A stretch of DNA of 46,054 nucleotides, from contig CAIVAR010000079.1 in the NCBI GenBank assembly GCA_903904005.1, positions 1 to 46,054 on the forward strand, read 5' to 3'. Source of the stretch: an uncultured Anaeromyxobacter sp. (GTDB lineage Bacteria > Myxococcota > Myxococcia > Myxococcales > Anaeromyxobacteraceae). The translations under genes and the position numbers were made by a program. Positions 40,055 to 43,751 of the stretch are shown here, one piece after another. The first letter of the stretch is position 1. The number at the start of each line of letters is the position of its first letter. Below the pieces are notes generated by a model. The model made no database searches, was not told where the DNA came from, and saw only the letters and a program-made list of their open reading frames with translations.

Positions 40055-40966
40055 ATGCGCGTGTTCCTCACCGGAGCCACCGGGCTCATCGGGCGCGCCC
40101 TGGCCGCCTCGCTCGCCGCCGACGGCCACGAGGTGGTGGCGCTCTCGCGGGGCGCCGCGCCCCAGGGGCTTCCGGCCGGGACGATGGTCGTCACCGGCGA
40201 CCCGTCGGTGGCCGGACCGTGGCAGGAGGAGCTGGCCCGCTGCGATGCCTGCGTGAACCTGGCCGGGGAGCCGGTAGCCGGGGGGCGCTGGACCGACGAG
40301 CGGCGCAAGCGCATCCGGGACAGCCGGGTGCTCTCGACCCGGAACGTGGCCGCCGTGGTCGGCGCGGGCGGTCCCGGCGTGCTCGTGAACGGCAGCGCCA
40401 TCGGCTACTACGGTCCCCGCGGCGACGAGGTGATCGACGAGACCTTCCCGGCCGGGAACGACTTCCTCGGGCACGTCGCGCTCGAGTGGGAGGAGGCCAC
40501 CCGTGCGGCGTCGAGGCGGGCGCGGGTGGTGCTCGTTCGCACCGGGATCGTGCTCTCCCCGGACGGCGGGGCGCTGCCCAAGCTGGTCCTGCCCTTCAAG
40601 ATGCTGGCCGGTGGACCCATCGGCGACGGGGGGTTCTGGCAGTCCTGGATCCACGTGGCCGACCAGGTGGGCATCCTCCGGCTGGCGCTCGAGGAGCCGC
40701 TCGCGCAGGGGCCCTTGAACGCCACCGCACCCGACCCGGTTCGCAACCGCGACCTGGCCCGGGCCCTGGGGCGGGTCCTGCGCCGCCCCAGCCTGCTCGT
40801 CGCCCCCGCCTTCGCCGTCCGTGCCGTGCTCGGCGAGATGGCCGAGGTGGTGCTCGCCAGCCAGCGGGTGGTGCCCACCCGGGCGCTGGCGCTCGGCTAC
40901 CGGTTCCGCTGGCCGTCACTGGAGCCCGCGCTCCGGGACCTTCTGCTCCAGGAGTCACGCCGATGA
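40055..40966 (+). CDS. TIGR01777-family NAD(P)-binding epimerase
   Basis: 303 residues. The Rossmann motif is GATGLIG (7-13); 'NLAGEPVAGGRWTDERRKRIRDSRV', 'NGSAIGYYGPRGDEVIDE', 'RTGIVLSPDGGALPKLVLPFKMLAGGP' and 'QSWIHVADQVG' define the TIGR01777/YfcH extended short-chain dehydrogenase group. The C-terminal domain begins at 'NATAPDPVRNRDLARALG'. Biochemical role in this family is poorly known. It is two bases after tsaB and its stop overlaps the next start (ATGA), so it belongs to the same transcript. No membrane segment. Confidence 0.93.
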   Translation: MRVFLTGATGLIGRALAASLAADGHEVVALSRGAAPQGLPAGTMVVTGDPSVAGPWQEELARCDACVNLAGEPVAGGRWTDERRKRIRDSRVLSTRNVAAVVGAGGPGVLVNGSAIGYYGPRGDEVIDETFPAGNDFLGHVALEWEEATRAASRRARVVLVRTGIVLSPDGGALPKLVLPFKMLAGGPIGDGGFWQSWIHVADQVGILRLALEEPLAQGPLNATAPDPVRNRDLARALGRVLRRPSLLVAPAFAVRAVLGEMAEVVLASQRVVPTRALALGYRFRWPSLEPALRDLLLQESRR

Positions 40967-41985
40967 CCGAGAAACCGTTGAAGCTCGCCGTCGTGGGTGC
41001 CACCGGTTCGGTGGGTCGCGCCGTGCTCGAGGACCTGGAGGCCCGCGAGATCAAGGTCGAGCTCCGGCTCCTCGCCACCTCCCGCTCCGAGGTCGACCTG
41101 CTCGAGTTCCGGGGCGACGAGCTGGAGGTCGAGACCGTCTCCGATCGTTCCTTCCGCGGCTGCGACGCGGCCATCCTGGCGGTCCCGGCGGCTGCGGCCC
41201 GGGAGCTCGCGCCGAAGGCCTGGGCCGAGGGCTGCCTGGCCATCGACCTCTCCGGCGCCTTCCGGTCGACCGACGGGGTCCCGCTCGTCGTGGTCGGGGT
41301 GAACGACGCCGACGTCGCCAGTGGGGAGACGCGGGGGGTCGTGGCCGCGCCGTCCGGCCCGGTGGTGCCGCTCGCCCTCGCGCTCGCCCCCATCCACCGC
41401 GAGGCGTCGATCCAGCGCATCGTCGCCACCATCCTCTTCGCGGCCTCGGGCTCCGGGCGGGCCGGCGTGCGGCAGCTCGAGAAGGAGATGGTCGCGCTCC
41501 TGAACGGCGAGGAGCCCGATCCTTCCGACCTCTCCCACCGGGTGGGCCTGAACCTCGTTCCGCAGGTGGGTGCCTTCGGCCCGGCGGGCATCACCGACCA
41601 GGAGGCGGCGGTGGGGGTCGAGCTGCGCCGGCTGCTCTCCGCGCCGGGACTCGCCGCCACCGCCACCGCCATCCGCGTCCCGGTCTTCTACGCTCACGGA
41701 CTCGTGGTGAATCTCCGGACCGCCCGGGCGATCTCCGCCGACGCGGCCCGGGCCGTGCTCCGCGCCGCGCCCGGTCTGAAGGTCATCGACGCCCCCGGCG
41801 AGCGGGTCTACCCCATGCCCATGCTCGCGGTGAACGACGACGCGGTCCTGGTCGGACGGGTACGGGAGGACGCTTCCCAGGAAAACGGGCTCGACCTCTT
41901 CGTGGTGGCCGACAACCTCCGGCGCGGCGCCGCCGGCAACGCCGTCCGCATCGCCGAGACCTGGGTCCGCACCCGCCGCACCTAG
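40963..41985 (+). CDS. ASADH-like (USG-1-type) protein without catalytic Cys
   Basis: 340 residues of the aspartate-semialdehyde dehydrogenase fold. The N-terminal NADP motif is 'LAVVGATGSVGRAVLEDL'. In true ASADH the catalytic cysteine lies in PNCST; the matching strand here reads 'AAPSGPVVPLALALAP' with Gly132 where Cys is expected. The second half retains Arg238 and His245 ('RVPVFYAHG'), the substrate-binding pair. This combination matches the USG-1-like branch, which is not considered to have ASADH activity. It is translationally coupled (ATGA) to the TIGR01777 gene. Its role is unknown; a true Asd should be encoded elsewhere. Confidence 0.85.
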   Translation: MTEKPLKLAVVGATGSVGRAVLEDLEAREIKVELRLLATSRSEVDLLEFRGDELEVETVSDRSFRGCDAAILAVPAAAARELAPKAWAEGCLAIDLSGAFRSTDGVPLVVVGVNDADVASGETRGVVAAPSGPVVPLALALAPIHREASIQRIVATILFAASGSGRAGVRQLEKEMVALLNGEEPDPSDLSHRVGLNLVPQVGAFGPAGITDQEAAVGVELRRLLSAPGLAATATAIRVPVFYAHGLVVNLRTARAISADAARAVLRAAPGLKVIDAPGERVYPMPMLAVNDDAVLVGRVREDASQENGLDLFVVADNLRRGAAGNAVRIAETWVRTRRT

Positions 41986-42126: not shown

Positions 42127-43005
42127 ATGCTCCGCAGAGCCTCTCTTCTCCTGCTCCTCCTCCCCGGATTCGCCCTCGCCCAGACCGGGACGGTGACCGC
42201 CTTTGCCACCTCTCAGGGCGTCATCGGCCAGGCCAACCGCGCCGACTGCACCTCGGCCACCGCCGTCGCGACATGGGCCATCGTCACGACCGGCCTCACG
42301 CTCGCCACCGGCGACAAGTGGCGCCTCTCGACGAGCTCCGGTTCGTGCAGCACGACCGTGCCCACCACCTACCTCACCGAGGTGCTGGCGAGCTCCACGA
42401 CCCAGTCGATCCCCGGGGTCTTCGTGGCGCAGATGGCGACCGAGGCCAGCGTCAGTTGCATCGGTGCCAACAACCAGACGATCAACCTCTGCGTCTACTA
42501 CCTGCCCACCGGGACCATCCCCAGCAACCCGCTCGTCTTCACCGGCACCCTCAACTTCCAGACCGCCATCCCCCCCCCGCCCAGCGTGAACAGCTCCTCC
42601 CCCGGCGACGGGCAGCTCTCCATCAACGTGACCTCCGGGACGGCGACCGCCACCGAGACGGCCGTCACCGGCCTCACCTTCACGGTCACGTGCACGCCGC
42701 CGGCCGGGGGCTCGGCCAAGTCGGCCACCGGCAACGCCGGCAACATCGTCTGCAGCGGCCTCACCAACGGCACCCCCTACACGGTCACCGCGGTGGCGAC
42801 GAGCTCGGCCGGCAACGTCGGCGCGGTCTCGGCCGCCTTCGGCCCCGGCGACAGCACGACGCCGCTCCCCTTCGTCGACTTCTGGACCGTCTACAAGTCC
42901 GCGGGCGGCGTCGAGACCGGAGGATGCGGGGCCGGCGGCGCCGGTTCCCTGGCCCCGCTGCTGGCCGTGCTCGGCTTCCTCGTGGCCCGCCGGAGGCGCT
43001 CGTGA
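42127..43005 (+). CDS. MYXO-CTERM-anchored surface protein with fibronectin-III-like domain
   Basis: 292 residues. ATG 42127 starts a signal peptide ('LRRASLLLLLLPGFALA') before Gln19; an upstream ATG at 42001 would place 42 residues before it. The Ser/Thr-rich mature part begins with 'GTVTAFATSQGVIGQ' and has several Cys. Residues ~155-250 resemble a fibronectin type III domain ('PPPPSVNSSSPGDGQLSINVTSG', 'LTNGTPYTVTAVATSSAGN'). The C-terminus is a MYXO-CTERM tripartite signal: Cys267 in GGCGAGG, the hydrophobic 'LAPLLAVLGFLVA' and 'RRRRS'. The protein should be processed by myxosortase and surface-anchored. Its stop overlaps the start of the barrel gene (GTGA). From memory this pair resembles the MXAN_2561/MXAN_2562 families; not checked. 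Confidence 0.85.
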   Translation: MLRRASLLLLLLPGFALAQTGTVTAFATSQGVIGQANRADCTSATAVATWAIVTTGLTLATGDKWRLSTSSGSCSTTVPTTYLTEVLASSTTQSIPGVFVAQMATEASVSCIGANNQTINLCVYYLPTGTIPSNPLVFTGTLNFQTAIPPPPSVNSSSPGDGQLSINVTSGTATATETAVTGLTFTVTCTPPAGGSAKSATGNAGNIVCSGLTNGTPYTVTAVATSSAGNVGAVSAAFGPGDSTTPLPFVDFWTVYKSAGGVETGGCGAGGAGSLAPLLAVLGFLVARRRRS

Positions 43006-43751
43006 AGAGGGTCCTCCTCGCGCTCGCGCTCGCCGCGGCGCTCCCCGCGGCCGCGCAGAGCCCGGTCATCACCGTGAAGGAGTCCCCGCGCTGGGGCTCC
43101 TTCCAGATCTCCATCTCCCCCTACAGCCCCAACATCGACTCCGAGTTCACGGCGACCCCGTTCCCGCCGTACGCCACCATCTTCGGCACGAGCCGGCCGC
43201 TCATGGTCCAGGCCCTGTTCAACAAGTCCCTCTGGGTCACCCAGTTCGGCACGCTCGAGCTCGGCCTCGGCGTCGGGTTCTGGCAGGTCTCGGGCGAGGG
43301 GATCTACCAGGCGCAGGACGGCACGCTCGTGCGCGGCGGCAGCACGAATCTCATGCTCATCCCCATCCAGGCGCAGGTCGGCTACCGCTGGGAGTGGTTC
43401 TACGAGCGCTTCGAGGTCCCGTTCGAGCCCTACGCACGGTTCGCGATCATCGACTCGATCTGGAGCACGAGCGGGCAGAACGGCACCTCGTCCTGGACCA
43501 CGGCGGACTTCGTCATCCAGCGCGGCTCGGGCGCCACCTTCGGCTGGTCGGCCACGCTCGGCCTGGCGCTGGTGCTCGACTTCTTCGACACCGGGCTGTC
43601 GCGCCAGATGGACTACGACGTGGGCATCAACCGGACCCTGCTCTTCTTCGACTTCACCCGGTCGAGCATCAACGACTTTGGATCGAAGAACAGCTGGCAG
43701 CTCGCCCCCAGCTACTGGGCGTGGAGCATCGGCCTGCAGTTCGTCTTCTGA
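43002..43751 (+). CDS. Outer-membrane beta-barrel partner of the MYXO-CTERM protein
   Basis: 249 residues from GTG 43002, overlapping the previous stop (GTGA). A signal peptide ('KRVLLALALAAALPAAAQ') precedes a run of about ten alternating strands with aromatic girdles ('WGSFQISISPYSPNID', 'FGTLELGLGVGFWQVSG', 'QAQVGYRWEWFYERFEVPFEPYARFAI', 'FGWSATLGLALVLDFF'), and the last residues 'GLQFVF' end in Phe, the BAM insertion signal. It is probably an eight- to twelve-stranded barrel. Coupling with the MYXO-CTERM protein suggests a two-component surface structure. No enzymatic motif. The stop abuts the kbl stop directly. Confidence 0.82.
   Translation: MKRVLLALALAAALPAAAQSPVITVKESPRWGSFQISISPYSPNIDSEFTATPFPPYATIFGTSRPLMVQALFNKSLWVTQFGTLELGLGVGFWQVSGEGIYQAQDGTLVRGGSTNLMLIPIQAQVGYRWEWFYERFEVPFEPYARFAIIDSIWSTSGQNGTSSWTTADFVIQRGSGATFGWSATLGLALVLDFFDTGLSRQMDYDVGINRTLLFFDFTRSSINDFGSKNSWQLAPSYWAWSIGLQFVF

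Follow-up and report, generated by a model that had tools for sequence, protein, structure and literature searches.

We favor, on balance, reading two overlapping genes of an uncultured Anaeromyxobacter, here termed A and B, as a surface module in which a probable receptor is partnered with an outer-membrane barrel, an arrangement that would be like that of TraA/TraB in layout and not homologous to it. The window analyzed is a stretch of 46,054 nucleotides, in which the pair and its upstream neighbor comprise the following features:

40963..41985, + strand: asd (aspartate-semialdehyde dehydrogenase); NF011456 303.3 bits, cut-off 223, scanned as 40984-41985, with the start at 40963 placed by an ATGA overlap
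42127..43005, + strand: gene A, predicted MXAN_2561-like MYXO-CTERM-type surface protein, 292 aa; NF045522 114.7 bits, below the curated 150
42127..42180, + strand: signal peptide of A, residues 1-18, from sequence, with a predicted cleavage site
42181..42564, + strand: N-terminal Ig-like domain of A, with cysteines C41, C74, C111 and C122, hypervariable in relatives; from cysteine conservation, fold and variability
42565..42864, + strand: FN3 domain of A; from PF00041 in relatives, profile and predicted fold
42865..42927, + strand: linker of A (DFW..Y...GG..TGGC), with the tag cysteine C267 at its end; from an alignment of 97 relatives
42928..43002, + strand: MYXO-CTERM-type hydrophobic helix and Arg cluster (four arginines) of A; from TIGR03382 and the predicted helix
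42992..42996, + strand: Shine-Dalgarno-like GGAGG for gene B, within Arg codons of A; from sequence
43002..43005, + strand: GTGA stop/start overlap of A and B, the B start being GTG; from sequence
43002..43751, + strand: gene B, MXAN_2562 family outer-membrane barrel, 249 aa; NF040596 152.9 bits
43002..43055, + strand: signal peptide of B, residues 1-18; from sequence, with a signal-peptide-like segment at the same place in fused relatives
43056..43748, + strand: mature 8-stranded barrel of B, 231 residues; from an AlphaFold2 model

The original prediction, made from this DNA alone, assigned A a MYXO-CTERM-type signal and an FN3-like domain, and both assignments were upheld. The layout expected of MYXO-CTERM proteins is present in the sequence, with a signal peptide at one end and a cysteine, hydrophobic helix, and arginine cluster at the other; the helix spans residues 256-271 of the structure model. 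In an NCBIfam scan, the tail scored 17.1 bits with TIGR03382 (cut-off 15.85), while with TIGR03901 MYXO-CTERM it fell short of the cut-off of 20, at 14.7 bits for the protein alone and 18.8 in the genome search. Pfam gave no match at E<=1 in either window protein, so that A itself does not reach the PF00041 gathering score for FN3. Three of seven scanned relatives (L083, L091, and L074) do pass it, a profile built from 97 A relatives matches solved FN3 domains, and the predicted structure of A (mean pLDDT 88.8), which comprises an Ig-like N-domain, an FN3 domain, the linker, and the helix, and thus two Ig-like domains by fold, matches an FN3 domain of NCAM at a Z of about 12 over its second domain. 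Given its NF045522 score, we regard A as a relative found at the same locus and do not count it within the MXAN_2561 family as curated. Where relatives were aligned (97 out of 101 non-redundant loci), the four N-domain cysteines were kept in 93-95%, and C267 aligned in 97/97, irrespective of the type of tag carried.

The outer-membrane barrel predicted beside A was likewise confirmed. B exceeds the NF040596 cut-off of 100, and its AlphaFold2 model (mean pLDDT 94.5, pTM 0.87) has the eight strands of an OmpA-type barrel, with OmpA (Z 14.8), a Legionella porin, NspA (14.4), and OprF as the nearest folds (Z 14.8 to 13.8) and OmpW also among its fold relatives. A PDB sequence search with B returned no match at E<=1, nor was there a match to the TraB profile NF033763 in the NCBIfam scan or to an OmpA domain in Pfam at E<=1. 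Eight-stranded OmpA/NspA-like barrels are not known to pass folded proteins. The suggestion that the barrel may secrete its partner, i.e., that B serves A as a pore for export or display, could draw on the tight pairing and fusion of the two genes, as in two-partner or autotransporter systems, but it is very unlikely, considering that autotransporter chains (BrkA, AaaA, and AIDA-I) appear only far down the structure-match lists for B and that the available text of PMC11980579 gives the type II secretion system as the export route of MYXO-CTERM proteins, with GspD being present in the window genome (516 bits, over its cut-off).

A and B had also been proposed to form one coupled unit through GTGA, and the phylum-wide data agree with this. 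In the window, GGAGG lies five bases 5' of the GTG of gene B. Across the phylum, the barrel was found in 180/195 genomes (145/149 good genomes), mostly with one match per genome, and an A-family match in 184/195, only 90/195 of which pass the NF045522 cut-off. We read the DNA at 150 genome-loci spread over 30 families, and the pairing in other myxobacteria on which the proposal depended was seen in nearly every one: A lies directly upstream of B in 101 split loci, and the two are a single fused gene in another 45, the remainder being one locus with a long gap (a second copy, in G034) and three barrel fragments without A. Fusion is seen in 18 of the 30 families, and split forms are seen in others, with a minimum of seven split/fused changes on the barrel tree (97 rows, the window row being unlabelled). 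Chance overlap of the two genes can be dismissed because B starts 4 nt inside A in 88/101 split loci (and 1 nt inside in six more). A Shine-Dalgarno-like core precedes B in 85/89 overlapping pairs, versus 11.9 expected. Two A genes that lack a B partner run up against a contig edge, and the barrel is missing from 15/195 genomes, at least two of which (G051 and G145) represent contig ends; its absence from family f20 (three genomes, 59-85% complete), G107, and G186 may reflect real losses, and the sole split locus of family f11 (G004) may be a frameshift. The named relatives of the window barrel (17 loci, found with one short pattern) belong to Anaeromyxobacter, Myxococcales, Myxococcota, and Deltaproteobacteria only.

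The surroundings of the pair are conserved as well. In the window, uppS, cdsA, dxr, rseP, tsaB, a TIGR01777 oxidoreductase, and asd follow one another between 34705 and 41985, ahead of A and B. Elsewhere, asd is the next gene upstream on the same strand in 112 of the 126 loci whose flanks were long enough to judge (a further 19 were too short), a linkage that extends over most families. The gene truA comes directly after the pair in 26/122 (26 too short), all outside the window's family. No mechanism emerged for the deep linkage to asd, which we treat as inherited order. It could nonetheless be taken to mean that A and B are merely co-transcribed envelope proteins, without direct contact, in a region whose order is conserved anyway. 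We consider this improbable, as the pair stays together in the 14/126 loci that have no asd upstream, the A+B unit was duplicated as a pair in two genomes (G034 and G054), and the recurrent fusions, the retained 4-nt overlap, and an excess correlation between the evolutionary rates of A and B all argue for a closer tie. Specifically, A and B distances correlate within families beyond what asd accounts for (partial r 0.50; a value reached in 0/500 permutations) over the 77 genomes in which all three proteins were long enough.

The fused genes indicate how the two proteins could still be separated. Their order is the FN3 domain of A, the tag (cysteine, helix, and Arg cluster), a further hydrophobic stretch that adjoins the tag directly and is closed by AxA, and the barrel. 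A signal-peptide-like segment with [AV]xA occurs at the junction in 41/45 fused loci, against 17.2 after shuffling, and the same crude test applied to split barrels found one in 78/106, against 21.8. With such a topology, A and the barrel would share one side of the inner membrane, the arginines being cytoplasmic, and one myxosortase cut plus one cut by signal peptidase I would then yield the same two proteins as the split form. In four genomes of family f2 (G019, G022, G025, and G028), the fused pair has an internal MYXO-CTERM and MrtX went undetected at E<=0.001, either because the protease has diverged or because its match was missed.

In families f11, f12, and f15-f19, A carries a CFI-box-CTERM (NF041770) in place of the MYXO-CTERM, as seen by pattern at 18 loci and with scores of 72-93 bits (cut-off 40) in the six proteins scanned from those families. 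Two examples, in which the cysteine aligns with that of MYXO-CTERM orthologues, are:

L083, 1935-3830, - strand: A with CFI-box-CTERM
L084, 6001-8046, - strand: A with CFI-box-CTERM

The tag cysteine, that of the CFI-box included, aligns with Cys267 over all 97 proteins, which suggests that the CFI-box may be a sorting tag equivalent in function to MYXO-CTERM. The domain occurs in 117/195 genomes, and most f6 genomes carry it on a different protein; it is in neither the window A protein nor the window genome, and a literature search found no paper with the word CFI-box.

Machinery suited to MYXO-CTERM tags is present in the window genome, as had been proposed for checking. A myxosortase-family protein (C139:70970-71650) matches NF040914 Mrt_core at 116.9 bits (cut-off 100), and scores 139.1 bits with NF040593 MrtX, below the cut-off of 180. 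The accompanying idea of co-occurrence with myxosortase genes did not bear fruit: MrtX was detected in 182/195 genomes (124 over the cut-off), and its joint presence with the barrel is not significant (170 with both, 10 with the barrel only, 12 with MrtX only, and three with neither; Fisher p 0.066), a weak test because nearly every genome has both. Only one tag in the window genome passes TIGR03901, and two fall just below, A and a protein on contig C63. The latter (L180, 1483-5000, - strand) is a MYXO-CTERM-type protein with Ig-like and laminin-G domains, and 3 nt past its stop lies a gene with a signal peptide and an OmpA domain that is weakly TraB-like; these look like a second pair of the receptor-barrel kind, in a genome where tags of this type are scarce. 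The sub-threshold TIGR03901 score of window A and the 13/195 genomes with undetected MrtX leave a slight chance that A is neither cleaved nor exposed at the surface, its tail keeping it in the inner membrane on the periplasmic side, with B as a plain porin. This reading sits badly with the invariant tag cysteine, with fast evolution, which is expected of exposed domains, and with the surface location of other MYXO-CTERM proteins in M. xanthus according to the available text of PMC11980579.

The layout of A and B invites comparison with TraA/TraB. In the parts of PMC6372800 available, the TraA variable domain is polymorphic, TraB does not set specificity, and traA and traB overlap in an operon. 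As in A/B, a variable N-terminal domain on a MYXO-CTERM surface protein is combined with a gene overlap with a conserved outer-membrane barrel gene. The components nevertheless differ. The PA14-like domain and the Cys-rich repeats of TraA were not found in A by Pfam or fold, and two Ig-like domains occur instead; in place of the TSP3 repeats and OmpA domain of TraB, B has a 231-residue barrel only. The distributions differ too: A/B is near-universal, including in relatives of Anaeromyxobacter, whereas the same available text reports Anaeromyxobacter and Vulgatibacter to be without traAB (PMC6372800).

A is set apart by the divergence of its N-domain. A comparison by domain over 140 genomes used 91 pairs whose barrels resemble each other (0.89 identity on average); mean identities in these were 0.57 for the N-domain, 0.64 for FN3, 0.86 for the linker, and 0.92 for the TM segment. 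Within the best-sampled genus (g19, with 16 species), 61 pairs had an asd dS below 0.15, and their median dN/dS values were.014/.11 for asd,.030/.17 for tsaB,.022/.14 for rseP,.035/.11 for the barrel,.050/.28 for linker plus tag,.144/.35 for FN3, and.370/.34 for the N-domain (omega 1.03). The effect is weaker in a second genus (g33; 24 species), which gave.166/.29 for the N-domain and.034/.25 for the barrel in its closest 15 pairs, with an N-domain omega of.48 there and of.75 and.62 in two wider bands; its rseP column has a paralogue mixed in for G133. The effect is smaller in the window's own family, with an N-domain dN of.08-.18 versus.02-.06 for the barrel in four pairs (comparison medians from 49/54 pairs). 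Further, for codon positions 1/2/3 in g19, the share of columns that vary was.69/.64/.80 in the N-domain and.17/.10/.43 in housekeeping genes. An alignment artefact behind the high N-domain dN was ruled out by the few indels in the 16-species alignment. Variation is higher outside the strands (p 0.026 in g19 and 0.0005 in g33), and the four N-domain cysteines are invariant in both genera.

TraA of the same genomes provides a yardstick. Over the same 42 pairs of g19, the A N-domain stands at.374/.37, while the TraA region with the variable domain has a dN of.06-.11 and a dS of.30-.74 in most 50-column bins, its position in the alignment being a reading of the published layout, with 13/14 TraA loci used. 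TraB stands at.030/.09 (39 of the 42 pairs). By this measure, the protein divergence of the A N-domain in g19 appears to be about four times that of the TraA variable domain, with the same local rise in dS. At the TraA/TraB loci themselves (L259-L272), a dS of.30-.74 in the TraA variable region stands against.09 in the adjacent traB, and this local rise suggests allele exchange. Other MYXO-CTERM ectodomains, surveyed in three genomes (28/30 loci recovered; the pair L238/L254 was apparently read in the wrong frame), had a dN mostly of.02-.11, with two at.25-.30. Those two are an M36 peptidase (L235 and L239) and an ELWxxDGT repeat protein (L246 and L256), putative orthologues in close species.

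Exchange of N-domain alleles is suggested for A as well. When the N-domain data were set against groupings from housekeeping genes, two groupings were strongly rejected and one was not (p 2e-45, 4e-125, and 0.125). In the reverse comparison, five N-domain groupings were set against housekeeping data, which rejected two (p 0.003 and 0.03) but left three standing (0.12-0.18). The groupings were picked after the trees were seen.

In the model that we propose, A would be exported by Sec and cut after Cys267 by the genome's myxosortase, after which the type II system would carry it to the surface, where a lipid would hold it and it would act as part of an outer-membrane complex with B. The N-domain would then be an outward recognition surface pressed to diversify, as its evolution implies, on a constant part made up of B, the linker, and the tag. 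Surface location, cleavage, binding, and any recognition role are thus predictions for A and B. Kin recognition is not implied because the lineages sampled include non-social ones that carry the pair. A less probable but still serious explanation of the N-domain diversity is escape from phages, predators, or competitors that bind the pair, with no partner to be recognized. An N-domain dN of.370 at an omega of about 1 in g19 and the excess of variation outside the strands would suit escape, as would the presence of the pair in Anaeromyxobacter, said in the available text of PMC6372800 to lack traAB and social traits. The paired cysteines and the constant barrel fit either view, and the data as a whole suit recognition and escape alike; a point against escape is that TraA, a proven recognition receptor, shares this local rise in dS across those genomes.

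Counterparts of the pair exist in the model species. MXAN_2561 (NF045522) and MXAN_2562 (NF040596) correspond to A and B in profile match, gene order, and locus position, with A scoring below the NF045522 cut-off; their NCBIfam names give no function and hold no mention of fusions, tag swap, or hypervariability, and a literature search of main texts found no paper that names either gene. The closest parallel to the fused form is MXAN_5598, which, in the available text of PMC11980579, combines an adhesin, an internal MYXO-CTERM, a barrel, and OmpA in one protein, with processing of its N-part having been proposed. Like fused A-B, it has an internal MYXO-CTERM followed by a barrel, but it has a large adhesin and an OmpA domain and is one atypical protein, whereas A-B fusion recurs in 18 families. 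Relative to the original prediction, the single coupled unit stands, secretion by the barrel finds no support, and the barrel may still anchor or display A; the fusions, tag swap, asd linkage, and hypervariable domain had been missed. Phylum-wide pairing, split/fused switching, the tag swap, asd linkage, and N-domain hypervariability are new here.

More broadly, and more tentatively, the pair may be a second polymorphic surface recognition system of the Myxococcota, unrelated to TraA/TraB, older, and far wider, that is made in many lineages as one polyprotein, later split by myxosortase and signal peptidase into receptor and barrel, and in which the CFI-box is a working tag. TraA/TraB is the best-studied receptor of such a layout in myxobacteria. 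If the proposal is true, its Ig-like domain diversifies faster than the variable domain of TraA, on a constant barrel, even in lineages reported to be without TraAB. The fused forms offer a natural test of myxosortase action inside a protein, the tag swap points to a role for the unexplained CFI-box-CTERM domain, and MXAN_2561/2562 are the counterparts in which A and B could be tested in M. xanthus. A near-universal, usually single-copy pair of this kind could serve in recognition, phage reception, or predator-prey contact throughout the phylum.
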